Origin: Bacteroidia bacterium
Lineage (GTDB): Bacteria > Bacteroidota > Bacteroidia > Chitinophagales > UBA2359
Length of the DNA stretch: 35,347 nucleotides
Reading direction: 5' to 3'
NCBI GenBank assembly: GCA_030427245.1
Contig: JAUHXA010000070.1
Span: 1 to 35,347, forward strand
Every line of letters begins with the position of its first letter. The first letter of the stretch is position 1. Below the pieces are notes generated by a model. That model was not told where the DNA came from. It saw only the letters and a list, made by a program, of their open reading frames with translations, and did no database searches. Positions 173 to 11,566 of the stretch are shown here, one piece after another. Made by a program: the position numbers and the translations under genes.

Positions 173-1222
173 ATGAACATTCAGATAAAAGACAAAAAAA
201 TAGGCGAAGAATATCCTACCTACATCATTGCAGAACTATCGGGCAATCACAACCAAGATTTTGATTTGGCAGTCAAAACCGTTTATGCTATGAAGGAAGC
301 GGGTGCGGATGCGGTCAAACTGCAAACCTATACGGCAGATACCATCACCCTCAACAGCGAAAAACCCGACTTCAAAACCCGTGCAGACAGTCTTTGGGCA
401 GGACAAAAATTACACGATTTGTATCAAGTCGCTTACACACCCTGGGAATGGCAGCCCAAGTTGAAGCAGTTGGCAAATGACTTGGGAATGCACTGTTTTA
501 GTTCCCCTTTCGACCCAACATCGGTTGATTTTTTGGAGCAAATGAACGTTCCTGCCTACAAAATTGCTTCCTTCGAAATTACCGATATTCCCCTCATCAA
601 GTACGCTGCTTCAAAAGGGAAACCCATCATCATGTCCACAGGTATAGCCGATATTGCAGATATAGATTTGGCAATTGCAGCTTGTCACAGCGTTGGGAAT
701 CATCAAATTGCATTGTTGAAATGCACTTCTGCTTACCCTACACCTTTGGAGGATGCTCACCTTCAAAACATTCCTTTCCTTCAATCCAAATACAAAACAG
801 TAGTTGGGTTATCTGACCATACTTTGGGCACAATCGTACCGATTACAGCAGTCGCTTTGGGTGCAAGAATTGTGGAAAAGCATTTTATTTTAGACCGCAA
901 TTTGGGAGGCGTAGATTCTGCTTTTTCATTGGATGCGATTGAGTTTAAAGAAATGGTGGACAGCATCCGAAATGTAGAAAAAGCATTGGGGCGAAAAGAC
1001 TATTTCCTTTCCGAAAAAGGCAAACGTGCTAAAGTGTCGGCTCGTTCACTCTATATCACTCAAGACATGAAAAAAGGGGATGTATTTACGCACGAAAATG
1101 TGCGCTCGGTTCGTCCTGCCTATGGTTTGCATCCACAATATTTGGAAGAGGTTTTGGGGAAGAAAGTGGCAGAAGATGTGGAGGCTGCAACGGCTTTGAA
1201 GTGGGAGTTGGTAGAAAAATAA
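173..1222 (+). CDS. pseI: Pseudaminic acid synthase (PseI, NeuB family)
   Basis: This enzyme condenses 2,4-diacetamido-2,4,6-trideoxy-L-altrose with phosphoenolpyruvate to make pseudaminic acid, a nonulosonic acid used in surface glycans. The 349-residue length fits the family. The N-terminal TIM-barrel domain carries AELSGNHNQDFDLA near residues 20-33, AGADAVKLQTYTADTITL near 44-61, CFSSPFDPTSVDFLEQ near 108-123, LKCTSAYPTPLEDA and VGLSDHTLG. These track the known Campylobacter PseI sequence closely. The C-terminal part from about residue 290 (ARSLYITQDMKKGD...) is the SAF/antifreeze-like domain. Wording such as LWAGQKLHDLYQVAYTPWEW favours PseI over sialic acid synthase NeuB. No other pse genes are in the window. 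The gene to its left is cut off and could belong to the same locus. Confidence 0.9.
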   Translation: MNIQIKDKKIGEEYPTYIIAELSGNHNQDFDLAVKTVYAMKEAGADAVKLQTYTADTITLNSEKPDFKTRADSLWAGQKLHDLYQVAYTPWEWQPKLKQLANDLGMHCFSSPFDPTSVDFLEQMNVPAYKIASFEITDIPLIKYAASKGKPIIMSTGIADIADIDLAIAACHSVGNHQIALLKCTSAYPTPLEDAHLQNIPFLQSKYKTVVGLSDHTLGTIVPITAVALGARIVEKHFILDRNLGGVDSAFSLDAIEFKEMVDSIRNVEKALGRKDYFLSEKGKRAKVSARSLYITQDMKKGDVFTHENVRSVRPAYGLHPQYLEEVLGKKVAEDVEAATALKWELVEK

Positions 1223-1408: not shown

Positions 1409-3910
1409 ATGAAGCTAAAATTATTTATGCTAATTTACATAGTTTTGAGTCTCAGTTCGTCAATAATGGCTCAAAGTTTTCAAAGAACTTTTGGTTTAGA
1501 AGGTGACGATGTAGGGAGTTCTATTCTAAAATTTTCAGATAGTTACGTGATTAGTGGTTTTACAGATAGTGATGGGGAAGGCGATTTAGATTTATTAATG
1601 ATGGAAATTGATAGTCAAGGAACTCCAATTTGGACAAAAAAATATGGTACAACAATAGATGATTTTCTGCGGACTACCATTAAAACGATAGATGGAGGAT
1701 TTGTAAGTATTGGAGAAACTGGCGAAAATATACTAGTATTAAAAACCGATCGAATGGGAAATGTCCTTTGGTCGAAAAGCATTGGAGGGGGGAATTCTGA
1801 GAGAGGTTTTAGTATTCTTCAAAATACAGATGGAAGTTTTGTATTGATTGGTGATACTCATAGTTATGGAGCTGGATTGAGGGATTTGTTAGTCGTGAAA
1901 ATTACAGAAAACGGTGAATTGATTTGGTCTAAAACGTATGGAAATCAACTGGATGAAGCAAGTACTGATTTCACAATGACTGACGACAATGCTTTTGTAA
2001 TTGTAGGAGTTGAAACCAGTCTTGCTCAAGGTTTTGGTATATTGGCTTTAAAAATAGATCAAGACGGAAATCCTATTTGGACGAGAAGCTTAGACGGTTC
2101 TGGAAACGACCATATTGATGCTATCTATGCAAATTCAGATGGAGATTTCGTACTTTATGGGCATACACTTTCTTGCAGCTCAGACTACAATAATATCGCT
2201 ATCAAGATAAATGATACTGGTGAAACCACATGGAGTTATACCTATGGAGAAGGTTTGGATGACAAGGGAATATCTATTACAAAAACGCCACAAGATGCTT
2301 ATTTATTAAGCAGTTATTTTGTCAATACCATTCAAAATGATAAAATTGATTTAGAAATAATTGAGATAAATGACAACGGAATTGTACTGAATAACAAAAT
2401 ATATGGGGGTCAAGAAAACGACCGTCCATTTTGGGGGCCATCTAATGGTATTACTACTTGGGGAAATAATGGTTTTGTGCTGCCTATTTATACTGAATCA
2501 TATGGACAAGGAGGAAAAGATATTCAAATTATTCAAGATGATTTTGCCACAAATTTAGACTGCAATATAAAATCTATAAACACTTTTGAAACACCTTGCT
2601 CATTGAACAATTCAGCTATCACTTTACAAGTAATAGAGGTAAATGTTAGTATCAGCAATTTATTTTTAGATGGTGAAGATATAAATTTATTGGAAACAGA
2701 AATTTGCTGCAATATCACTGCCGAAATTAACGGAAAGACCACTATTTGTAAAGGCGAAAATGCTGCTCTATCCGCAAGCGGAGGACAACTTTATGTTTGG
2801 AGTCCTGCCCAAAGTTTGGACAACTCAAATTCTGCTAATCCGACTGCTTCTCCCTCGATAACAACCATTTATCACGTAACTGTTTCTACTGAAAATGAAT
2901 GTACTGGTACTGCAAGTACAGAAGTTGTAGTAAATCCTCGTCCAAGTTTTAACATTATTCCTCCATCTATTTTATGTGAAGGTGAAAGTACAGAACTGAG
3001 TTTTGGAAATCAAACTTTTGCAGCTTATTTGTGGGAAGATGGTTCAATGAATTCAACTTTAGAGGTCAATGAAGGAGGATTCTATTCTGTAACCATTACG
3101 GATGAGAACGGATGTACTGCAAATACCGTTACTGAGGTTATTGTACACTCTTTACCCGCTCCAAATTTGCCTTCTACCATGAATATCTGTGAAGGAGAAA
3201 CCATTGAATTGGCTTTACAAAATCAAACTTTCGACAATTATTTGTGGGAAGATGGTTCAAGTAATCCAGCTTTAACCATAAGTGAGTCGGGAACTTATTC
3301 ATTGACAGTTACAGACACCAACGACTGCACAGGAGTTGGAAATACAGAGGTAATCGAGTTTTCCGCTGAACCTCCTGTTTTTGACTTAGGCGTAGATGTA
3401 CTCACAATTTGCCAAGATTCAACAGTAGTTTTACAAATAGAGGAAGGTTTTGACAGCTATCTTTGGTCAGATGGAAGCACACAGAATTTTTTGACCATCG
3501 TAGAAGCTGGAAACTACAAAGTAACGGTGTCAAATAGCTGTAATTCCGTATTTGTTTCGGCTATTGATTCCATTACAGTAATAACAGAGGATTGCAGTGA
3601 AGGAGAGGAAGAAGAGCCCGATTCAGACAATCCTCAAAAAATAGTCGTTCCAAGTGCTTTTTCTCCCAACGAAGATGGCATTAACGATGCCATGAGAATT
3701 TGGCATACCAAAGACATCGAAATCGTAGAGTTCTCCATTTACAACCGTTTTGGAAACCTCGTCTTTACGACTGACAACTCCATTGAAGGGTGGAATGGAA
3801 TCTACAAAAATCAACTTCAAGATATTGGAGTCTATGCCTACTATATTCAAGCCATTGATAACGAAGGCAACACTATTTTGAAACAGGGAAATTTTACCTT
3901 GATTAGGTAA
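1409..3910 (+). CDS. Secreted repeat protein with gliding-motility-associated (CHU_C-type) C-terminal domain
   Basis: The 833-residue protein starts with a signal peptide (residues 1-21, ending ...SSSIMA|QS). Residues about 25-370 hold several copies of a roughly 50-residue unit of the form DGGFVSIGETGE...ILVLKTDRMGNVLWSKSIGG, likely a beta-propeller-like array. Residues about 440-740 hold Ig/PKD-like modules with a recurring Cys, GE, then YLWEDGS or YLWSDGS and SGTYSLTVTD-type strand. Two of them share a 23-base identity at 3025-3047 and 3238-3260. An acidic linker (EGEEEEPDSDN) leads to the C-terminal domain from about residue 747 (PSAFSPNEDGINDAMRIWH ... YNRFGNLVF), which matches the gliding-motility-associated/CHU_C domain of proteins exported by the type IX system. 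Its role is probably cell-surface or extracellular adhesion, but the ligand is unknown. It ends 23 bases from a convergent gene. Confidence 0.85.
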   Translation: MKLKLFMLIYIVLSLSSSIMAQSFQRTFGLEGDDVGSSILKFSDSYVISGFTDSDGEGDLDLLMMEIDSQGTPIWTKKYGTTIDDFLRTTIKTIDGGFVSIGETGENILVLKTDRMGNVLWSKSIGGGNSERGFSILQNTDGSFVLIGDTHSYGAGLRDLLVVKITENGELIWSKTYGNQLDEASTDFTMTDDNAFVIVGVETSLAQGFGILALKIDQDGNPIWTRSLDGSGNDHIDAIYANSDGDFVLYGHTLSCSSDYNNIAIKINDTGETTWSYTYGEGLDDKGISITKTPQDAYLLSSYFVNTIQNDKIDLEIIEINDNGIVLNNKIYGGQENDRPFWGPSNGITTWGNNGFVLPIYTESYGQGGKDIQIIQDDFATNLDCNIKSINTFETPCSLNNSAITLQVIEVNVSISNLFLDGEDINLLETEICCNITAEINGKTTICKGENAALSASGGQLYVWSPAQSLDNSNSANPTASPSITTIYHVTVSTENECTGTASTEVVVNPRPSFNIIPPSILCEGESTELSFGNQTFAAYLWEDGSMNSTLEVNEGGFYSVTITDENGCTANTVTEVIVHSLPAPNLPSTMNICEGETIELALQNQTFDNYLWEDGSSNPALTISESGTYSLTVTDTNDCTGVGNTEVIEFSAEPPVFDLGVDVLTICQDSTVVLQIEEGFDSYLWSDGSTQNFLTIVEAGNYKVTVSNSCNSVFVSAIDSITVITEDCSEGEEEEPDSDNPQKIVVPSAFSPNEDGINDAMRIWHTKDIEIVEFSIYNRFGNLVFTTDNSIEGWNGIYKNQLQDIGVYAYYIQAIDNEGNTILKQGNFTLIR

Positions 3911-3933
3911 GGGAAATTTTGAATTTGAGTTTT

Positions 3934-5019
3934 TTAATTCCGCAAATACTCCACCTCATGCACCTCCGTCAATTGTGGCATATCCAATATCCGAAGCATC
4001 GAGGTCATGCTTTTGGCTTTGATTTGTGTTTTGCGTCTTGCGTAAATATTAGCGAGGCTCGTTTCGACATAGACGATTTTGATTTTGGGTTTGTAAACCA
4101 ACAAAGTGCGAACCAATTTCTCACGAATGCGGGGGCTTAAATTGGTGCTGTTCCAAATAAAAGGCTGTTTTTTTCTGCAATATTCTTTCGCCAACTCATA
4201 GGCGTATTGCACCACCTTACCCTGCCCATCCTTGTCCGAAAAACGGATGTTCAATTCTTCACGAACAGCATCCAAACTAATGACAGGTAAACCTTTACCA
4301 TACTTTTCGATGTAAGTGTCCTTACCACTTCCTGCAATCCCAGCCATCAAAATCACTTCAAATTCGGTTTCATCGTATAGTTCGGCAAGATAGTCACTAT
4401 CAGACTGAAAATACTGCACACGACTATGGTCGTTGAAGAATGGCTTGGACTGAGTAAAACAATCGTTTTCCAAACACAATTCTTTGAACAATTCTATTCG
4501 GTACAAATAATCGTCTTGGTCTTCACTGATACGCCCCAAAACATCCGCTTTCGCCAATAGATAAATCCACTCATTTGGCACTCTCAGACTCGCTGCAATG
4601 ACGGACTTATTCGGAAATTGTTTCTCCAAACACCAAATCGGCAGACCATGCAATCGTACCAAAGCACATATCTGTTCCCGAACTTCAAAGTCGCTGTCCC
4701 ATAACAATTGCCGAGCGATTTTTTCACCCACCAACGCGTGTTTGGGCGCACGAATCACCCCATCGACCAAAGTTGTACATACAGGTTTGGCGACATCGTG
4801 TAATAGGGCAGCAAAAAGTAAAATCTGTTTTTCGTCTTGCTCCAATGTTTGAAACTCCTTCAATTGCAGCAATTCCTCAAGGACCATTAGCGTATGCACA
4901 TACACATCTCCTTCCGCATGAAAAGCAGGTTCTTGTGGGCATTTCTTCATCGCTTCAATCCACTCAAACTCCTCCAAAACTTGCCATTGGAATTGGTTAT
5001 TTTGCAATAGAGCGCTCAT
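3934..5019 (-). CDS. HD-Pnk: HD-domain 2',3'-phosphoesterase fused to 5'-OH polynucleotide kinase
   Basis: Two domains are visible. The N-terminal half is an HD phosphohydrolase, with His34, His42 and the LLHDVAKP motif at 72-79. The C-terminal half is a P-loop kinase, with GIAGSGKD at 227-234. This order matches the bacterial HD-Pnk enzymes characterised from Runella slithyformis, which heal broken RNA or DNA ends: HD removes 2',3'-cyclic or 3' phosphate and the kinase phosphorylates 5'-OH. The gene lies directly downstream of an RNA ligase on the same strand, so the two would heal and seal. An ATG at 5019 is preferred (361 residues), giving a 23-base overlap with the ligase. An ATG at 5088 would add 23 residues but overlap the conserved ligase end by 92 bases. 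Substrate preference cannot be read from sequence. Confidence 0.8.
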   Translation of the reverse strand: MSALLQNNQFQWQVLEEFEWIEAMKKCPQEPAFHAEGDVYVHTLMVLEELLQLKEFQTLEQDEKQILLFAALLHDVAKPVCTTLVDGVIRAPKHALVGEKIARQLLWDSDFEVREQICALVRLHGLPIWCLEKQFPNKSVIAASLRVPNEWIYLLAKADVLGRISEDQDDYLYRIELFKELCLENDCFTQSKPFFNDHSRVQYFQSDSDYLAELYDETEFEVILMAGIAGSGKDTYIEKYGKGLPVISLDAVREELNIRFSDKDGQGKVVQYAYELAKEYCRKKQPFIWNSTNLSPRIREKLVRTLLVYKPKIKIVYVETSLANIYARRKTQIKAKSMTSMLRILDMPQLTEVHEVEYLRN

Positions 5020-5656
5020 GCCATAACCTTGCCCTGCGCCAGTTGCGGGTCCAATGTTCATCGGTCTTAACGTGATTTTTTCGGACATACTTCAATACAT
5101 TTTTACTAAATTCATCCACTCCAAAACTTCCCGAATTGCGGCAAACAAACCCCTCACATTCCCCTCCCAAAGCGCTGCCTTTCGCCATTCCTTCAGCAAT
5201 TGCAGTTTGAAGAGAATCGGCAGTGAAATGTTCCTTTTGAAGAATAGGAACTGTTGGTAAATCAATCATTGCAGCGTAAAAACAAACGTCTTTCCACGAC
5301 AACCAAACATCGCCTTCTCGTACTGCAAAGACATAAAAATAGGACTTTAATTCGGTGTATTCAATGCTATGAACACCATACAGATTTTCTCCAAAAAACT
5401 CCAATTCTCCCAAATCATTTTGAACCCGTGCCCAAATTTGATTCATGTTTTTTGCCCACGGATTGCGGGTTGGTGCAGCATGAGAACGGGCATACACACC
5501 CGATTTTTTTAAGCAGGTATTTTCCCCATCCAGCTTTTCCGTGATGACGATTTCGTGCTGCAATATCGCCTCCCAATTCTGCTGAATTCGGTCGTCAGAG
5601 GTCGTACCTTTGGAGAAAGGGAAATGATAGGTTCGGCTGTATTTTCGGCTTTGCAT
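4997..5656 (-). CDS. RNA ligase (Rnl2-like nucleotidyltransferase family)
   Basis: This is an ATP-dependent nucleic acid ligase of the covalent nucleotidyltransferase superfamily. Motif I is KLDGEN, whose lysine would be adenylylated. Motif III is GENLYGVHSIEY. A motif IIIa-like strand reads FYVFAVREGDVWLSWKDV. Motif IV is CEGFVCRN and motif V is LKYVRKNH. At about 219 residues it is a compact ligase with little C-terminal domain, like stand-alone bacterial RNA ligases. The ATG at 5656 (MQSRKYSRTYHF) is preferred; an ATG at 5716 would add 20 poorly structured residues. Its 3' end overlaps the HD-Pnk start, a sign of translational coupling. Together they form a two-gene end-healing and sealing pair, probably for RNA cut by stress or defence nucleases (inference). 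Confidence 0.85.
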   Translation of the reverse strand: MQSRKYSRTYHFPFSKGTTSDDRIQQNWEAILQHEIVITEKLDGENTCLKKSGVYARSHAAPTRNPWAKNMNQIWARVQNDLGELEFFGENLYGVHSIEYTELKSYFYVFAVREGDVWLSWKDVCFYAAMIDLPTVPILQKEHFTADSLQTAIAEGMAKGSALGGECEGFVCRNSGSFGVDEFSKNVLKYVRKNHVKTDEHWTRNWRRARLWHERSIAK

Positions 5657-5741
5657 GACTTTAGAAGATGGTGAAATTGTTTTAAGGGAACAGGGATTTG
5701 TTTGAAATCGTTCCAAAATAGAGAAACTTCGACAAGGCTTG

Positions 5742-5805
5742 AAAACTTTGTCGACAGTTGAACGGAGGGGCGACCTTACTTCACTTCAACTGTTGCCAAA
5801 GTTTT
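5742..5805. repeat. Palindromic repeat copy 1 (21-bp arms)
   Basis: The arm 5742-5762 pairs with 5785-5805 at 19 of 21 positions around a 22-base spacer. The right arm contains TTCAACTGTTGCCAAAGTT, found again at 5897-5915 and, shortened, at 34823-34839. It lies in the gap between the RNA ligase (minus) and the Uma2 gene (plus), so each side could use it as leader or insulator. It looks like a dispersed REP/MITE-like palindrome. Confidence 0.7.
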
Positions 5806-5853
5806 CGTTGTTTGATTTTCTCGACGGAGCGAGTGGAAATCTTGACAACACCT

Positions 5854-5915
5854 GAAAGGTTTGTTAACGATTGGAACGGGAAATGTTCGTCACCGCTTCA
5901 ACTGTTGCCAAAGTT
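5854..5915. repeat. Palindromic repeat copy 2 (decayed left arm)
   Basis: This tandem relative of the 5742-5805 element has an intact right arm at 5897-5915 and a diverged left arm around 5854-5875. The spacing between the two right arms is 112 bases. The two copies fill much of the 348-base non-coding stretch 5657-6004, in which no other gene is seen. Confidence 0.55.
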
Positions 5916-6004
5916 CTCGCTATTTTTAAAGTCATCAGAAACTTTTGTTTCCCTTATATTGTTTTCTTCAAAACATTTCCGAGCATACAAAAACAAAAGA
6001 AAAA

Positions 6005-6607
6005 ATGATTACTTCTCTTAGCCAATTGGATTTGAACAAGCGTTACACCTATGCAGATTATCTTCTTTGGCAATTCAAAGAAAGAGTAGAATTATTGAAG
6101 GGGCGGTTGTTGCCTATGGCTGCTCCAAATGTGAAGCATCAGCGTATTTCCAGCAACCTACAGGCAAGACTATACAATCATTTTTTCGGAAAAAAATGCG
6201 ATGTTTTTGCAGCCCCTTTCGATGTTCGATTACCACTTCCCAAATCTAAAATCAAGGGAAACAAAATAGATACCGTGGTTCAGCCAGATTTATGTGTAGT
6301 TTGCGACGAGGACAAATTAGACACACAGGGTTGTGTAGGCGCACCAGATTTGGTGGTGGAAATTTTGTCACCTGGCAATTCAAAGAAGGAGATGAAAGAC
6401 AAATTTGAATTGTATCAAGAAGCGGGTGTATTGGAATATTGGGTGATAGACCCCGAACACAATTTGGCTTTTGCTTATCATTTGGACGATACCACGAAAA
6501 AATTTGTTTCAGATATTCCCATGGCTGCTTTGACTGACGAAGATGCTTTGACCTCCAAAGCGTTTGAAGGATTGGAGATTACATTGAAAGATATTTTTCC
6601 AAAATAA
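6005..6607 (+). CDS. Uma2 family endonuclease (PD-(D/E)XK, DUF820)
   Basis: The protein is a Uma2/DUF820-type restriction-endonuclease-fold protein, about 200 residues, the usual size. The nuclease core shows the first acidic residue in VVQPDLCVV, the acidic residue of the next strand in PDLVVEILSPGNS, and the conserved lysine in KDKFELYQEAGVLEYWVIDP. The N-terminal YADYLLWQFKERVELLKGRLL and HQRISSNLQARLYNHF also match the family. The start at 6005 (MITSLSQLDL) is preferred; an upstream ATG at 5945 would add 20 residues that do not look like the family. These proteins are abundant in Bacteroidota and Cyanobacteria and their biological role is unsettled. It ends 15 bases from the convergent CHAT-nSTAND gene. 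Confidence 0.85.
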   Translation: MITSLSQLDLNKRYTYADYLLWQFKERVELLKGRLLPMAAPNVKHQRISSNLQARLYNHFFGKKCDVFAAPFDVRLPLPKSKIKGNKIDTVVQPDLCVVCDEDKLDTQGCVGAPDLVVEILSPGNSKKEMKDKFELYQEAGVLEYWVIDPEHNLAFAYHLDDTTKKFVSDIPMAALTDEDALTSKAFEGLEITLKDIFPK

Positions 6608-6621
6608 AATGCAGCTGAATT

Positions 6622-9600
6622 TCAAATCCCAAACTCCCGTCTTTCCTCCTTCCCCAATTCATACAATTTCCCCGCCCGTTCCACAATTGCATCCATATCC
6701 ACCAACCATTTGCGAACACAACCATCCTTAGAAGCCGAATACACCAAACTACCATCCTCTGCTGCAAAATCAGCCGAAATCACTGCCGCCCGATGCCCTT
6801 CCAATTCCGCCAATAATTCCCCTTCCAAACTCCAAATCTTCACTCCGAAATCATCCGAAGCCGTCAAAAAATGGGTACGGTCGGGAGACAGACGGAGACA
6901 GTTGATAGCTCCTCGATGCGCCTCTTTTTGCCAAAGAATTTGCCCCTTTCCATCCCAAAAAGTGAGAAAACCCCTTGTATCGGCAGTCAAAAAGCCCGAT
7001 TGCAAGGATTCACCCACAAAAGCCGCTTGAAGAATAGGGTTGCCGTTAGTAGAAGACAAACGCAAAATCTCTTGGCCCTTCACATTCCACACACGAGCCG
7101 TTGCGTCTTCCGAGGCGGTCAATAGATGTATACCATCTGCCGACCAAGCCACCGACCAAACCGTTTTATCGTGTCCCTTTGCACCCAAAGGAGTAGAATC
7201 GGTTGAGGGGGGCAAAGTAGGGGTTTCTCTGGGACTTGCAGGGTTAGAATAAGCCTCTTCCGATTGTTCGATGTATTGGTCTTGGCGTTTTGGGTCGAAT
7301 TCACGCATCAATTGAGCCACCAATTCTTCGATTTTTTTTCCTTCCACGTTCAAAATACGCTGACCATCCGCTACTCGCCAAACCTTCACACTGCCATCCT
7401 CCGATGCACTTGCCAAGCGTTTGCCATCGGGTGAAAACGCCAAATCCGTCACAACTGCCTTGTGACCGACTTCTGCCAAAACCTGCTCTTCGAGTTCTTT
7501 CATTTTGTCTTGCTGTTCCTTTGCAGTCAGCGAAAAAAAGTTTTGCATTGCCTCGTCTTGCAGTTGAGCGAGCGAGATGCTACGCATCGTATTTTTTGCA
7601 GCAGAAGGAGTGATTTCTTCCAAGCTCTTGTTCCAAAGTCGAATAGGTGTGCTATCGCCCGCCGTAGCAAAGGTATTTCCATCGGGTGAAAAAGCCACGA
7701 TTTCTGCAAAACGCTCTCTGAAATTGGTTTCTTCAAACGAATAACTTTGGACGCTGTTGTTCTCCAAGTCCTTCAAAGCCAATCGTTGAGGCTGTGCCAT
7801 CAACAGAGTCTTGGTTTTTGGATGAATCACCAAATCCTGAATGACCTCTTTTTCCCAAGTCATTTCCTCCCAAAAATTCACCTCCAAACGCCATTGATAG
7901 ACTTGTCCATTTGCCAAAGCCCAAATTCGCCGACGATCACGACTCCACATAAGTCGGTTGATGCGCTGCATATCGCCCGATAAATCCACCACCTCCTCCA
8001 GTTTTTCGTTTAGCCATTTCAAATTCGCATAACCAAACGATGCCACGATTTGCAGTTCCTTTTCGTGCTTATTGCAGACCGCCAAAGTCGTCAATTCTTC
8101 GTCAAAAACCTTGCTGCCGATTTCTTCCAATGTTTCCAGATTCACCAATTGCAGCGTTTTGCCGCCCCACAAAGCCACTATATTGTCGCTTTCATCAAAA
8201 CGCAAAGCCTCGACTTCAAAAGAAACAGAGAGTTTCAGAGGAGGTTTGTCTGAATTTATCTCCCACAAAAACAAAGCTTTGTCCTGCACATACAGCACTT
8301 GCAGCCCCTCAGCATGAGGTCGAAAAGCCGCTACTTCCAGACTTTCCTGTTCTTCACCGAAAGTTTGCAGCGCAGTTCCCGAAAGGTCAAAAACTTCAAC
8401 AATTGCATTGCGCTTCAATAGGTGAATCTGTTGATTGTCAGCCGAAAACTGAATGTCGAGGTAATGCAGCAAAGGTTGATTCCAACATTTGCCTTCTTCT
8501 TTACCTTTGGCGACCTTTGCAAACCGCTTGCTTCTGAATCTACGCTCAGTCGAGTCCGTATTTGCTTCCGCAATACTCACCTTCATCAATTGCTGACCAT
8601 TGGTTTTCCACAGCTTCAATTGGAGAGACGTATCCAAAGCCGCAATCTTACCATCGCTCGAAAAACAAGCCATTGCCATTTGTTCCGAATCCTGCAAAGT
8701 CGCCTTTACCTTGCCTTCAGAATTGTACAATTGTGCCTTTGCGTGACCCTTCATCACCAAAACTGCTTCCTCTTTTGGGCTAAAAACCAAGTCCTTTGCG
8801 CCATTCACATTCTTCAATTTTTGGTACAAGGGAGCTTTGTAGAATGTCTGAAAAAAGGCTCGTTTGCTCAGCGCATTTGCCTGCAATTGCGTGTGTGCAT
8901 ATTCCGCCAAACGATAGGCAACCGTTTGGTCTTGCAGCATACCTGACAAAGCCTTGGAACACAACATCAAATGCAATTCGTCTGGAGTCCATTTTCTCAT
9001 ACCCGACCGTCCTTTTTCCACCAATTGAATGTCTTGTAGATTGAGTGGACGCATTTCGAGACTGAACTGATTGAAGTCGAGTTGATTGCGTAGAACTCGG
9101 CGAGCTTGTTGCCCAAGCGTATTCGAGCTATTATAGGTGTGTACCACCCATTTTGCCAAGGTGTCGTGCGCCAATCGAGTTTTTTGTCGGGCTTTGTCGG
9201 TGTTTTGATTGGGGTCAATGAGGAGGTAAAATTCTTGTAGTTTGTTGAGCAATTGAGGAAGCAAATGACTTTTGTGGGCATAAAGCAGCATCAATTCCTT
9301 GCGTTGTTGGCTCGTTGCCGTTCCCAAATCGGTGACATGACTCGCCAACAAATCCAAAATCAAACCACTTTTTCGGGCTTCCGTCATTGCGGCTTCTTTC
9401 AGTGCCTCAATTTTCTTCAATTGCATCCGCAAAAAACTGTCCATCCACAAGCCTTCATTGGTCAATTGCCGATACATCGCCCATCTAAACACAGGTTTTT
9501 CGGCATTTTCAGCCTGTGCCATTTCCCACAGCCGAGAGAGTAAAATTTGCAGTACGGGGGCAATCGGTGATTCGGGGTCTTTCAGTAGGTCGTCCGCTAT

Positions 9601-11073
9601 CTGCGCCGCCAAAGATTCTTCTTCATTCGCCAAGACTTCAATGCTCAATTTGTACTGAGCTTTGGGGCGAGGTCGTTCGGTGATTCCTTCAACGGCTTGA
9701 ATGATGTCGTCTCGTTTGAGTCGCTCCAAAAAAACTTCCGTATAAGCCATTTTTGCCGTTTCAAAAGCCAATTTGATTTCTGCAAAATATTCTTTTCGGT
9801 ACGCTAAAATCACCTTGCCTTTGGGGCGTTCTGTTCCTTCAAAAATGTGTTGAAGGGCTGCAATGAAGGTTTGCAGTTCTCGCTCGGGATGAAATTGAGG
9901 AGTGCCTTCCTGCAATGCTTTTTCACCAAAATCAAAAGGTCGGGTAAATGCTTCTTCTACTTGGTCTAAAATAACAATCAGGGGCTTTTGCAGCTTTTCT
10001 TCCATCTCCAACCAAAGGGTTTTCAGATTGGAGAATGCTTCAAAGGGAAAATTCAGGGCTTTTGCTTTGGGTGCTAACCCTTGTTTCATACTTTCCAACA
10101 AGCCCCATTTTTGATTTCGGCGAATATACAACACTTCATGTTGCACCTTCAATCTTGGAGTCAAACCACCCGCCAACAAGGAGGATTTTCCCACGCCCGA
10201 CTGACCATGTAAGTGAATGATGGCGGCTTTGGTTTGTGCGGTTTCTTTTTTTGCCGTGGCTTTCACCTTGTCGTACAATTCCCAAATCTGAAAATCTCGC
10301 CCAAAAAACAATTCGGCATCTTCTTCTCGAAACCACTCCAAATAGCGGTAAGGTTTTTCGGGTAGCGGATGCGGTGGGAGAGGAGGCAGGCTGAAAAGTG
10401 GGTCTTTGGCGGCAAAGGGTAAGTTCCACGTCCGAACTTTTGCTGCGCCTTCTCGCACGTAAAAATCCCACGGAAAGCGGTCAACAGCGGCTTGATGTCT
10501 ATTGGAAAACAACTTCCTCATAGAAGTTCCCCGCTTGATTTTGACTGAAGCGGCTGCCTCTCGAAACGACTGCCCGATTCCGTCTCCTGCTGCCAAGCTG
10601 TTGTAGAAATGTATGGCAAATTCGGTGGCTACTTCATCATCAATCGCTTGTGAGGTGGCTATTACTGCCCCAACATTTGCCTTCAATAAATTGTCGACTT
10701 GATTCTGCGTAGAACAGCCATTCAAAAACACCAATTCCAATCCGCTTTGCTGCCCTAAAAAATCTGCAAAGCCATCTGCATGAGCCAATTGCACTCGCTC
10801 TTTGTTTTCGGTTTCCAGTGCCAGATGGTCGCCTCCTGCATGTCCTCCAAAATGGAAAACGGCAATTTGTCGAGGATATTTGTTGAAGACTTCCAATATT
10901 TTGTCCACTGTTGCTTCCTTCAATATCTCGATTCGACACAATCGTCCTTCAATTTTTTGCAGCACGTTTTGTACTTTTTGACATTCAGTATCCAAATTGC
11001 GGAGGAAATGGGCTTCGTTGGTGGTGTTATTGGCGAAAGCTAAGAAGATGATGGGTTTGGCTGGATTTGGCAT
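6622..11073 (-). CDS. CHAT protease - nSTAND1 ATPase - WD40 repeat protein
   Basis: This is a 1483-residue multidomain protein. The N-terminal CHAT (caspase-like) domain has a complete dyad: His78 in FHFGGHAGG and Cys120 in FLNGCSTQ. A proline-rich linker precedes an nSTAND1-type NTPase, recognisable by PYRYLEWFREEDAELFFGR, Walker A GQSGVGKS (290-297) and Walker B LIVILDQVEE (365-374). From about residue 780 to the end there are many WD40 blades, the clearest being LAFSPDGKRLASASEDGSVKVW, VAWSADGIHLLTASEDATARVW and DFGVKIWSLEGELLAELEGH. By family logic the WD40 part senses a ligand, the ATPase oligomerises, and the CHAT protease is the effector. The ATG at 11073 is used; an in-frame TTG at 11106 would add 11 residues. 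The residues are intact, so it is likely active. The target is unknown. Confidence 0.9.
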   Translation of the reverse strand: MPNPAKPIIFLAFANNTTNEAHFLRNLDTECQKVQNVLQKIEGRLCRIEILKEATVDKILEVFNKYPRQIAVFHFGGHAGGDHLALETENKERVQLAHADGFADFLGQQSGLELVFLNGCSTQNQVDNLLKANVGAVIATSQAIDDEVATEFAIHFYNSLAAGDGIGQSFREAAASVKIKRGTSMRKLFSNRHQAAVDRFPWDFYVREGAAKVRTWNLPFAAKDPLFSLPPLPPHPLPEKPYRYLEWFREEDAELFFGRDFQIWELYDKVKATAKKETAQTKAAIIHLHGQSGVGKSSLLAGGLTPRLKVQHEVLYIRRNQKWGLLESMKQGLAPKAKALNFPFEAFSNLKTLWLEMEEKLQKPLIVILDQVEEAFTRPFDFGEKALQEGTPQFHPERELQTFIAALQHIFEGTERPKGKVILAYRKEYFAEIKLAFETAKMAYTEVFLERLKRDDIIQAVEGITERPRPKAQYKLSIEVLANEEESLAAQIADDLLKDPESPIAPVLQILLSRLWEMAQAENAEKPVFRWAMYRQLTNEGLWMDSFLRMQLKKIEALKEAAMTEARKSGLILDLLASHVTDLGTATSQQRKELMLLYAHKSHLLPQLLNKLQEFYLLIDPNQNTDKARQKTRLAHDTLAKWVVHTYNSSNTLGQQARRVLRNQLDFNQFSLEMRPLNLQDIQLVEKGRSGMRKWTPDELHLMLCSKALSGMLQDQTVAYRLAEYAHTQLQANALSKRAFFQTFYKAPLYQKLKNVNGAKDLVFSPKEEAVLVMKGHAKAQLYNSEGKVKATLQDSEQMAMACFSSDGKIAALDTSLQLKLWKTNGQQLMKVSIAEANTDSTERRFRSKRFAKVAKGKEEGKCWNQPLLHYLDIQFSADNQQIHLLKRNAIVEVFDLSGTALQTFGEEQESLEVAAFRPHAEGLQVLYVQDKALFLWEINSDKPPLKLSVSFEVEALRFDESDNIVALWGGKTLQLVNLETLEEIGSKVFDEELTTLAVCNKHEKELQIVASFGYANLKWLNEKLEEVVDLSGDMQRINRLMWSRDRRRIWALANGQVYQWRLEVNFWEEMTWEKEVIQDLVIHPKTKTLLMAQPQRLALKDLENNSVQSYSFEETNFRERFAEIVAFSPDGNTFATAGDSTPIRLWNKSLEEITPSAAKNTMRSISLAQLQDEAMQNFFSLTAKEQQDKMKELEEQVLAEVGHKAVVTDLAFSPDGKRLASASEDGSVKVWRVADGQRILNVEGKKIEELVAQLMREFDPKRQDQYIEQSEEAYSNPASPRETPTLPPSTDSTPLGAKGHDKTVWSVAWSADGIHLLTASEDATARVWNVKGQEILRLSSTNGNPILQAAFVGESLQSGFLTADTRGFLTFWDGKGQILWQKEAHRGAINCLRLSPDRTHFLTASDDFGVKIWSLEGELLAELEGHRAAVISADFAAEDGSLVYSASKDGCVRKWLVDMDAIVERAGKLYELGKEERREFGI

Positions 11074-11566
11074 AGTGAGGATTTCATTGGATGAAGCTGT
11101 TTTCAAAAATTAAGATAGAGAAGAATGTGAAAAATAATAAATATGGATAAAATCATTCTACCAATCTACATGTATTTATCCCGAAAGTTCGTACTTTTTT
11201 AGAAGAGAATATTCAATCGAGCATTTTTTTTTCTGACTTGCGAGCAAAGTAATCCCCTGCAAACGATACCTAATAGAAGTTCAGATTCAAATGCAAAAAC
11301 CAGATTCAAAGAAGTAGGTGGTCTAAATATAAATGGATCAAAAAAATTGCAGCTCATTTTTGTTATACCAAATTGGCGTTAATGAATGTGAAATTGCGGT
11401 CAAAAAAATTAATTTCACAGGTCGTTTTTCGCTTTTCCTATTTCTTTTGGTATTATTGTCACTTGAAACAGACTTGAAGGGCAAGGTAAATGATGAAGTT
11501 TGCTGATTTTTGTATTGTGTCGAAGCAAATAAACAACAGAACAAACTATAAAATAATAAGTCTCTT
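11074..11566. other. Intergenic region between the CHAT gene and the peptide importer operon
   Basis: These 493 bases separate two divergent genes and must hold both promoters and leaders. I see no convincing coding frame, hairpin or TAnnTTTG element with a properly spaced TTG. A minus-strand open frame at 11338-11652 crosses the lipoprotein signal sequence of the next gene and does not look coding. Confidence 0.6.

Follow-up and report, generated by a model that had tools for sequence, protein, structure and literature searches.

The window analysed here is a stretch of 35,347 nucleotides from a Bacteroidia bacterium (GCA_030427245.1, contig JAUHXA010000070.1). Two overlapping genes on its minus strand are predicted to encode an ATP-dependent RNA ligase and, downstream of it, an HD-Pnk protein, in which an HD domain is fused N-terminally to a polynucleotide-kinase-type P-loop domain. 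Both had been recognised in an initial annotation made from the sequence alone, and their existence and overlap are borne out by open reading frames, Pfam matches and conserved residues. The features of the pair are the following:

4997-5656, minus strand: ATP-dependent RNA ligase gene, type A, 219 amino acids (Pfam PF09414, invariant residues, AlphaFold2 model, T4 RNA ligase 2 fold)
3934-5088, minus strand: HD-Pnk gene, 384 amino acids in its longest form, which begins at ATG 5088, with 5061 or 5019 as alternative starts (Pfam, conserved residues, AlphaFold2 model, folds)
4997-5088, minus strand: maximum gene overlap, 92 bases (start codons, frames, third-position test)
4997-5061 and 4997-5019, minus strand: alternative overlaps of 65 and 23 bases, given by the in-frame ATGs at 5061 and 5019

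The ligase matches the Pfam RNA_ligase family (PF09414; E 3.6e-27, 96 bits against a cut-off of 27) and is the sole match to this family in its genome. The motifs KLDGEN, CEGFVCRN and KYVRKNH, named in the initial annotation, are found in the translation. The residues K41, D43, G44, E90, E168, G169, K189 and R192 are invariant in 25 of 25 aligned ligases, among them 14 of 17 viral loci (the copies L074, L076 and L080 being omitted) and, from L002-L017, 9 of the 16 type-B loci; R57 is conserved in 16 of the 25 and replaced by Q in nine type-B rows. The expected catalytic lysine is K41 in KLDG, while E90 belongs to FFGEN, E168 to CEGF, and K189 and R192 to KYVR. In the usual nucleotidyltransferase nomenclature, we take K41 to be the catalytic lysine, E90 and E168 the glutamates of motifs III and IV, and K189 the lysine of motif V. 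The protein matches two PHROGs families, one of RNA ligases (E 1.9e-41) and one without a name (E 2.2e-45); searches of NCBIfam and PADLOC gave no match for it.

An AlphaFold2 model of the ligase, built from the alignment of 25 ligases, has a mean predicted local distance difference test score (pLDDT) of 89.5 and a predicted template modelling score (pTM) of 0.88. Its best structural alignment is with T4 RNA ligase 2 (Z 16.1, root-mean-square deviation (rmsd) 2.6 over 175 residues), and Naegleria RNA ligase is also close (Z 15.4, rmsd 3.1, 178 residues). Among the 50 matches listed, RNA ligases fill the first 19 places and a DNA ligase first appears at place 20, with Z 12.5, the same value as that of T4 RNA ligase 1. 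In the Foldseek ranking the top place goes to an archaeal RNA ligase (E 1.7e-6), while 3qwu, a putative DNA ligase, comes fourth. Model residues 1-195 align to residues 0-231 of T4 RNA ligase 2 (Rnl2). In the Rnl2 subfamily a C-terminal domain follows the nucleotidyltransferase domain, and an OB domain is usual in DNA ligases. The protein of the window aligns as a lone nucleotidyltransferase domain and, ending at 219 amino acids, has no room for an OB domain.

The fusion reported for the second gene is confirmed by Pfam matches above cut-offs to HD (E 2e-7, residues 62-150; numbering of the longest form) and AAA_33 (E 3.5e-15, residues 245-355), with which the model folds agree. In two alignments of HD-Pnk proteins, A2 and A3, the residues H57, H65, H97-D98, H117, D182, G255, K256, D273, R276, R322 and R352 are invariant (18/18 and 21/21 rows); the one exception among the metal- and phosphate-site residues is H147, present in all 18 rows of A2 and in 20 of the 21 rows of A3. 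The P-loop (window 4309-4341, residues 250-260) reads GKD and not GKS/T. This D is shared by every row of A2 and by 15 of the 21 rows of A3, the others having S (3 rows, including Deinococcus, with GKS) or N (3 rows). PHROGs returned an unnamed family (E 1.1e-18) and PADLOC only weak matches (PtuA, E 0.0027; Cas10d, E 0.014). The AlphaFold2 model, from the 18-sequence alignment, has a pLDDT of 87.6 and a pTM of 0.89. Its HD half resembles the tRNA processing enzyme 3wfp (Z 17.9, rmsd 3.3, 179 residues), which is listed as a poly A polymerase in the sequence search. The kinase half is close to the polynucleotide kinase of C. thermocellum, 4jt2 (Z 14.3, rmsd 2.5, 144 residues), to seryl-tRNA(Sec) kinase (Z 14.2), which is also the top match by sequence profile, and to T4 Pnkp (Z 12.5). 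The substrate of either protein does not follow from such likeness of predicted folds alone. An HD-Pnk of Runella slithyformis has reportedly been characterised, with an N-terminal HD phosphoesterase and a C-terminal kinase.

A survey of gene contexts, proposed beforehand as a check, found a ligase of this family upstream of HD-Pnk on the same strand in 34 of 37 loci, which come from several phyla and include genomes, plasmids and one phage. The three loci lacking it are L095, L096 and L098, and scanned frames upstream of the first two have no Pfam match. The 37 loci leave out duplicates (L018, L019, L032-L042), one locus cut by a contig end (L028), two with HD-Pnk split in two frames (L029, L030) and HD-only or kinase-only matches (L031, L044, L045, L047-L071); for L013, with no ATG, GTG or TTG before the domain, the open frame was used. 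In the 34 linked loci the genes overlap in 13 cases, under the start rule used, lie within 30 bases of each other in 12 and are 96-829 bases apart in nine. The linkage is not a selection effect, since the ligase is present in all 17 loci that were fetched with HD-Pnk alone. Identity to the nearest relatives, L001 and L020-L023, amounts to 63-72% for the ligase and 51-55% for HD-Pnk, which places the gene pair far beyond chance; the nearest named relative, Aureispira (Saprospiraceae, Bacteroidota), has 56% identity in HD-Pnk, which suggests Bacteroidota as the phylum of the window. The dependence of the overlap length on the start codon could speak for chance neighbours or for an overlap that is an annotation artefact, but this explanation is already contradicted by the conserved order and strand with mostly tight spacing, and we consider it extremely improbable.

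The overlap of 23 bases in the initial annotation holds if HD-Pnk starts at ATG 5019, and does not if the in-frame ATGs at 5061 or 5088 are used, which give 65 or 92 bases. The relatives disagree on the choice. In L026 there is an identical 23-base overlap with the upstream frame closed by a stop, favouring the short form; in L001 the sole ATG, GTG or TTG in frame lies 71 bases before the ligase stop, favouring a longer one. L020 and L021 have TTG at the position of the window codon at 5019, and four-base overlaps occur in L023, L043, L011 and L014. Among six overlapping sequences (the pair L022/L029 omitted as near-copies, L029 otherwise kept despite its split HD-Pnk), third codon positions of the ligase are identical in 88 of 159 comparisons for codons 195-212 against 705 of 1529 for codons 1-188, a level matched by 2.4% of 166 sliding windows. 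No such rise is seen against four sequences without a long overlap (104/243 vs 893/2027), nor among those four (22/56 vs 250/539). As the sequences are few and the pairs not independent, this signal lends weak support to a translation start before 5019. Model confidence is low over residues 1-30 of the longest form (block means 48-54). Similarity of the HD-Pnk N-terminus in tblastn was rejected as a proof of the long overlap: the alignment crosses a stop in L090 and L026, so that at least part of the similarity reflects the conserved end of the ligase gene. Translational coupling of the two frames is plausible.

The remaining features around the pair are:

173-1222, plus strand: NeuB-family gene (Pfam)
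1409-3910, plus strand: gene for a CHU_C-tailed protein (Pfam)
5657-6004, no strand: intergenic region from the ligase to the Uma2-family gene, holding copies of a genome-dispersed repeat
6005-6607, plus strand: Uma2-family gene, divergent (Pfam; PADLOC candidate family PDC-S03, E 2e-49)
6622-11106, minus strand: gene for a CHAT-nSTAND1-WD40 protein of 1494 amino acids with NLR-like architecture (Pfam; PADLOC HEAT-ARM_XIII, E 6.8e-12)

Since the next gene downstream (1409-3910) is on the plus strand and the gene upstream (6005-6607) is divergent, the operon, if there is one, would consist of the ligase and HD-Pnk alone, co-transcribed from a promoter that probably lies in 5657-6004. A scan of 3850-6020 for sigma-70-type promoters found 2 sites against a mean of 3.6 in shuffled sequences, other promoter types being outside its scope, and a terminator scan gave no excess over shuffles. 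The repeat in 5657-6004 is present there in inverted and direct copies; it has 21 matches in the genome including itself, and on contig C88 four copies are spaced at about 110 bases. An Rfam scan of the window found nothing.

As had been proposed, the domains and catalytic residues of the three activities needed to rejoin a break with 2',3'-cyclic-phosphate and 5'-OH ends are encoded by the pair. The HD domain would open the 2',3'-cyclic phosphate and then strip the 3'-phosphate, the kinase domain would phosphorylate the 5'-OH, and the ligase would form lysyl-AMP from ATP and then join both ends. The substrate would be cellular RNA cut by a metal-independent endonuclease, with tRNA as the leading candidate. 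We suggest that the two genes form a bicistronic operon of the LIG/HD-Pnk kind and repair breaks in this way, most likely in cellular RNA, tRNA first, a reading to which we give reasonable if far from full confidence. The kind itself is already known, as DRB0100 and DRB0098 of Deinococcus radiodurans are homologues. For HD-Pnk enzymes the chemistry is plausible, while the natural substrate is apparently not agreed, and a compact two-gene pair holding its genome's sole PF09414 match offers a simple setting for deciding between repair of RNA and repair of DNA.

An RNA target is favoured by the ligase family, its fold and the contexts of phage homologues. In the huge phage LR756500 (L092, ligase at 5596-6687) ligase and HD-Pnk are adjacent, separated by two bases; the ligase there is extended at its N-terminus by a stretch that resembles HNH on visual inspection and in which Pfam finds no match. 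HNH-ligase fusions occur in jumbo phages, according to PMC7824862. None of 17 viral-contig loci, with up to 4 kb on each side, has a complete HD-Pnk, L077 showing the start of one at its end. In two of these loci, L081 and L082, which are near-copies of each other, a tRNA nucleotidyltransferase gene and three tRNA genes lie close to the phage ligase. In another genome of the family of the window (G012), a 7.6-kb contig (L112/C52, 732-6866) holds a ligase, HD-Pnk, a TROVE (Ro60) fragment, an RF-1-domain protein on the opposite strand and a full Pnkp of 857 amino acids; this cluster is known from that single genome, and its TROVE match is weak (21.5 bits in the open part against a cut-off of 23, and 23.3 with stops read through). 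These three contexts would link the pair to RNA. Co-occurrence of TROVE and HD-Pnk within the family was tried as a further indication and rejected, with 6 of 7 TROVE genomes having HD-Pnk against 5 of 13 others (Fisher p 0.07, not significant, relatedness uncorrected). The genome of the window has no TROVE match and no Pnkp (TIGR04075) above the cut-off; it has two genes of the RlaP family (RNA repair pathway polymerase beta) on contig C83 (L104, 5586-6347; L105, 3467-4552), the second being partial.

The pair might instead repair DNA, HD-Pnk cleaning 3'-phosphate and 5'-OH ends left by radiation or oxidative damage and the ligase sealing them or assisting. Support for this comes in part from the homologous operon of D. 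radiodurans, DRB0100-DRB0099-DRB0098, whose genes have the same order and strand. Its ligase is 35% identical and type A by the same profile, and its HD-Pnk is 26% identical. There, the TIGR02452 gene DRB0099 (266.8 bits) sits between ligase and HD-Pnk, whereas in the window the two overlap with nothing between them. According to PMC1997131, the operon is strongly induced by irradiation, and DRB0098 is a 5'-kinase that phosphorylates a DNA oligonucleotide. By its title, as cited in PMC9146567, the work of Schmier and Shuman (2018) has HD-Pnk abetting resistance to ionizing radiation and mitomycin C. Sequence searches of the PDB with either protein alone gave nothing useful, and profiles were required. 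With its profile the ligase finds 3qwu first (E 4.8e-5), an entry whose depositors named it a putative DNA ligase, and Naegleria RNA ligase ranks behind it (E 0.0033).

Against DNA repair stand the assignment of the ligase to RNA_ligase and its lone nucleotidyltransferase domain, with no space for an OB domain, as well as the phage and Pnkp contexts, which point to RNA. Results on the Deinococcus ligase are in line with this: PMC1997131 describes DRB0100 as an adenylyltransferase using ATP that ligated no DNA, alone or together with DRB0098 and DRB0099, and in PMC1978522 disruption of DRB0100 left radiation resistance intact. The signs from this operon conflict, with induction by radiation on one side and a ligase without detected ligation on the other; since that ligase reportedly sealed neither DNA nor RNA in vitro and its operon responds to radiation, DNA remains a rival target. 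We regard a DNA end-repair operon as rather unlikely, and RNA, tRNA first, as the more probable target, with DNA as its main rival.

Several further observations weigh against RNA repair by the pair. Purified DRB0100 had neither DNA nor RNA ligase activity according to PMC1978522; in PMC1997131 the substrate used for DRB0098 was DNA, and attribution of a 3'-phosphatase activity to this protein and its HD motif was not possible; the radiation response of the operon and the first rank of 3qwu count on the same side. A tRNA gene scan of the window was empty, none of the four flanking genes scanned has a ribonuclease domain by Pfam (the other genes of the window being outside that scan), and a search of the genome for PrrC-like AAA_13 proteins gave nothing above the cut-off. 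Of 16 viral or phage loci scanned for tRNA genes, namely L092, L099 and 14 of the 17 viral loci, only 2 have clear ones; L083 has one uncertain tRNA nearby and L084 a small kinase. The genome also encodes one RtcB. As RtcB occurs in 17 of 20 family genomes, HD-Pnk does not simply take its place. Finally, HD-Pnk is patchy: within the family, 10 of the 19 other genomes carry it, and none of 40 genomes from other families of the order does. In a scan of 395 genomes of the phylum, 79 matched the HD-Pnk query, and only the genome of the window and two others (G304, G274) matched with both halves; the other 76 match the HD half only, are presumably tRNA nucleotidyltransferases and free HD proteins, and were rejected as HD-Pnk.

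This patchy distribution could also reflect a phage- or plasmid-derived counter-defence module, now chromosomal, that shields the element or cell carrying it from abortive-infection ribonucleases, as could the occurrence of homologues in jumbo phages and, in several phyla, on large plasmids, some of which are records of chromosome size. No phage or plasmid gene is present among the four flanking genes scanned, and most copies of the same family group together on the HD-Pnk tree, with a Proteus copy (L090) falling inside the group and L024, of the same family, outside. We consider such an origin improbable, and it overlaps with the RNA-repair operon proposed above without excluding it.

The proposed RNA-repair operon resembles the T4 system, which repairs tRNA after PrrC cleavage with one end-healing protein, Pnkp, and an ATP-dependent ligase. 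The folds agree with this likeness, with Z 12.5 between the kinase half and T4 Pnkp, and Z 16.1 and 12.5 between the ligase and Rnl2 and Rnl1. In T4 Pnkp, a HAD phosphatase follows the kinase, whereas in the window an HD phosphoesterase precedes it; unlike T4 RNA ligase, the ligase of the window has no recognisable second domain. Healing and sealing are likewise combined in the bacterial Pnkp/Hen1 and Pnkp1-Rnl-Hen1 systems (kinase half Z 14.3 to C. thermocellum Pnkp and 13.3 to Pnkp1), the latter complex performing RNA repair with methylation, according to PMC4411300. Pnkp/Hen1 carries a one-chain Pnkp, whereas the HD-Pnk of the window scores only 20.1 bits against TIGR04075 (cut-off 750). 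Neither a one-chain Pnkp nor a recognised methyltransferase is encoded by the four flanking genes scanned, no search of the genome having been aimed at Hen1 itself.

Among relatives, one type of healing enzyme is combined with two ligase branches, assigned by profile score (E 1e-50) and not by a ligase tree. Type A, which comprises the ligases of the window, Deinococcus (DRB0100) and jumbo phages, has a typical start KYxRTxH and a PxSxG stretch, and type B starts with KYPRTxHxEGS or near it. Of the 20 type-B loci, 13 are labelled Bacillota, and the others include L024, an Acidobacteria locus and a cyanobacterial plasmid. On the HD-Pnk tree of 37 rows the ligase type requires five changes over three states against a mean of 13.8 in shuffles, and branches with good support already call for a minimum of two changes in type A and of two in type B. 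The simplest reading of these sequences would be that HD-Pnk swapped its ligase branch at least once and still kept a ligase.

In 10 of 17 loci (L003, L004, L007-L010, L014-L017), a gene for an S-adenosylmethionine-dependent methyltransferase lies directly upstream of a type-B ligase (3397-4062 at L007). Among the seven loci without it, L001 has a type-A ligase, and the upstream sequence of L013 is limited to 943 bases; L006, L011 and L012 have no upstream methyltransferase gene despite about 4 kb. PDB matches of the methyltransferase include chains named 'Methyltransferase type 12' and 'Hen1', the top one being another methyltransferase, and its identification as Hen1 was rejected, as it scores 22.4 bits with TIGR04074, whose cut-off is 340. 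No account of a methyltransferase-ligase-HD-Pnk locus was met in a limited literature search, though one may exist. Tentatively, LIG/HD-Pnk could be a portable core of modular RNA repair: the upstream methyltransferase, mainly in Bacillota, would give repair with immunity and so parallel Pnkp/Hen1 as an independently assembled system. In a close relative, the neighbouring Ro60 fragment, release-factor homologue and Pnkp would tie the bare two-gene form of the window to the rescue of damaged translation RNAs. If these loci do methylate the repaired end, they would show that repair with immunity arose more than once. The methyltransferase cassette and the pairing of a single healing enzyme with two ligase branches outweigh the pair of the window in worth. 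Two of the loci show additional genes. At L007, a PNK3P-like phosphatase frame (6059-6637) overlaps the end of HD-Pnk and is a possible fourth member of the cassette. At L003 (Acidobacteria), a protein of 487 amino acids with a PNKP_ligase domain (1988-3451) lies just before the methyltransferase, followed by a short type-B ligase frame of 170 amino acids and HD-Pnk.

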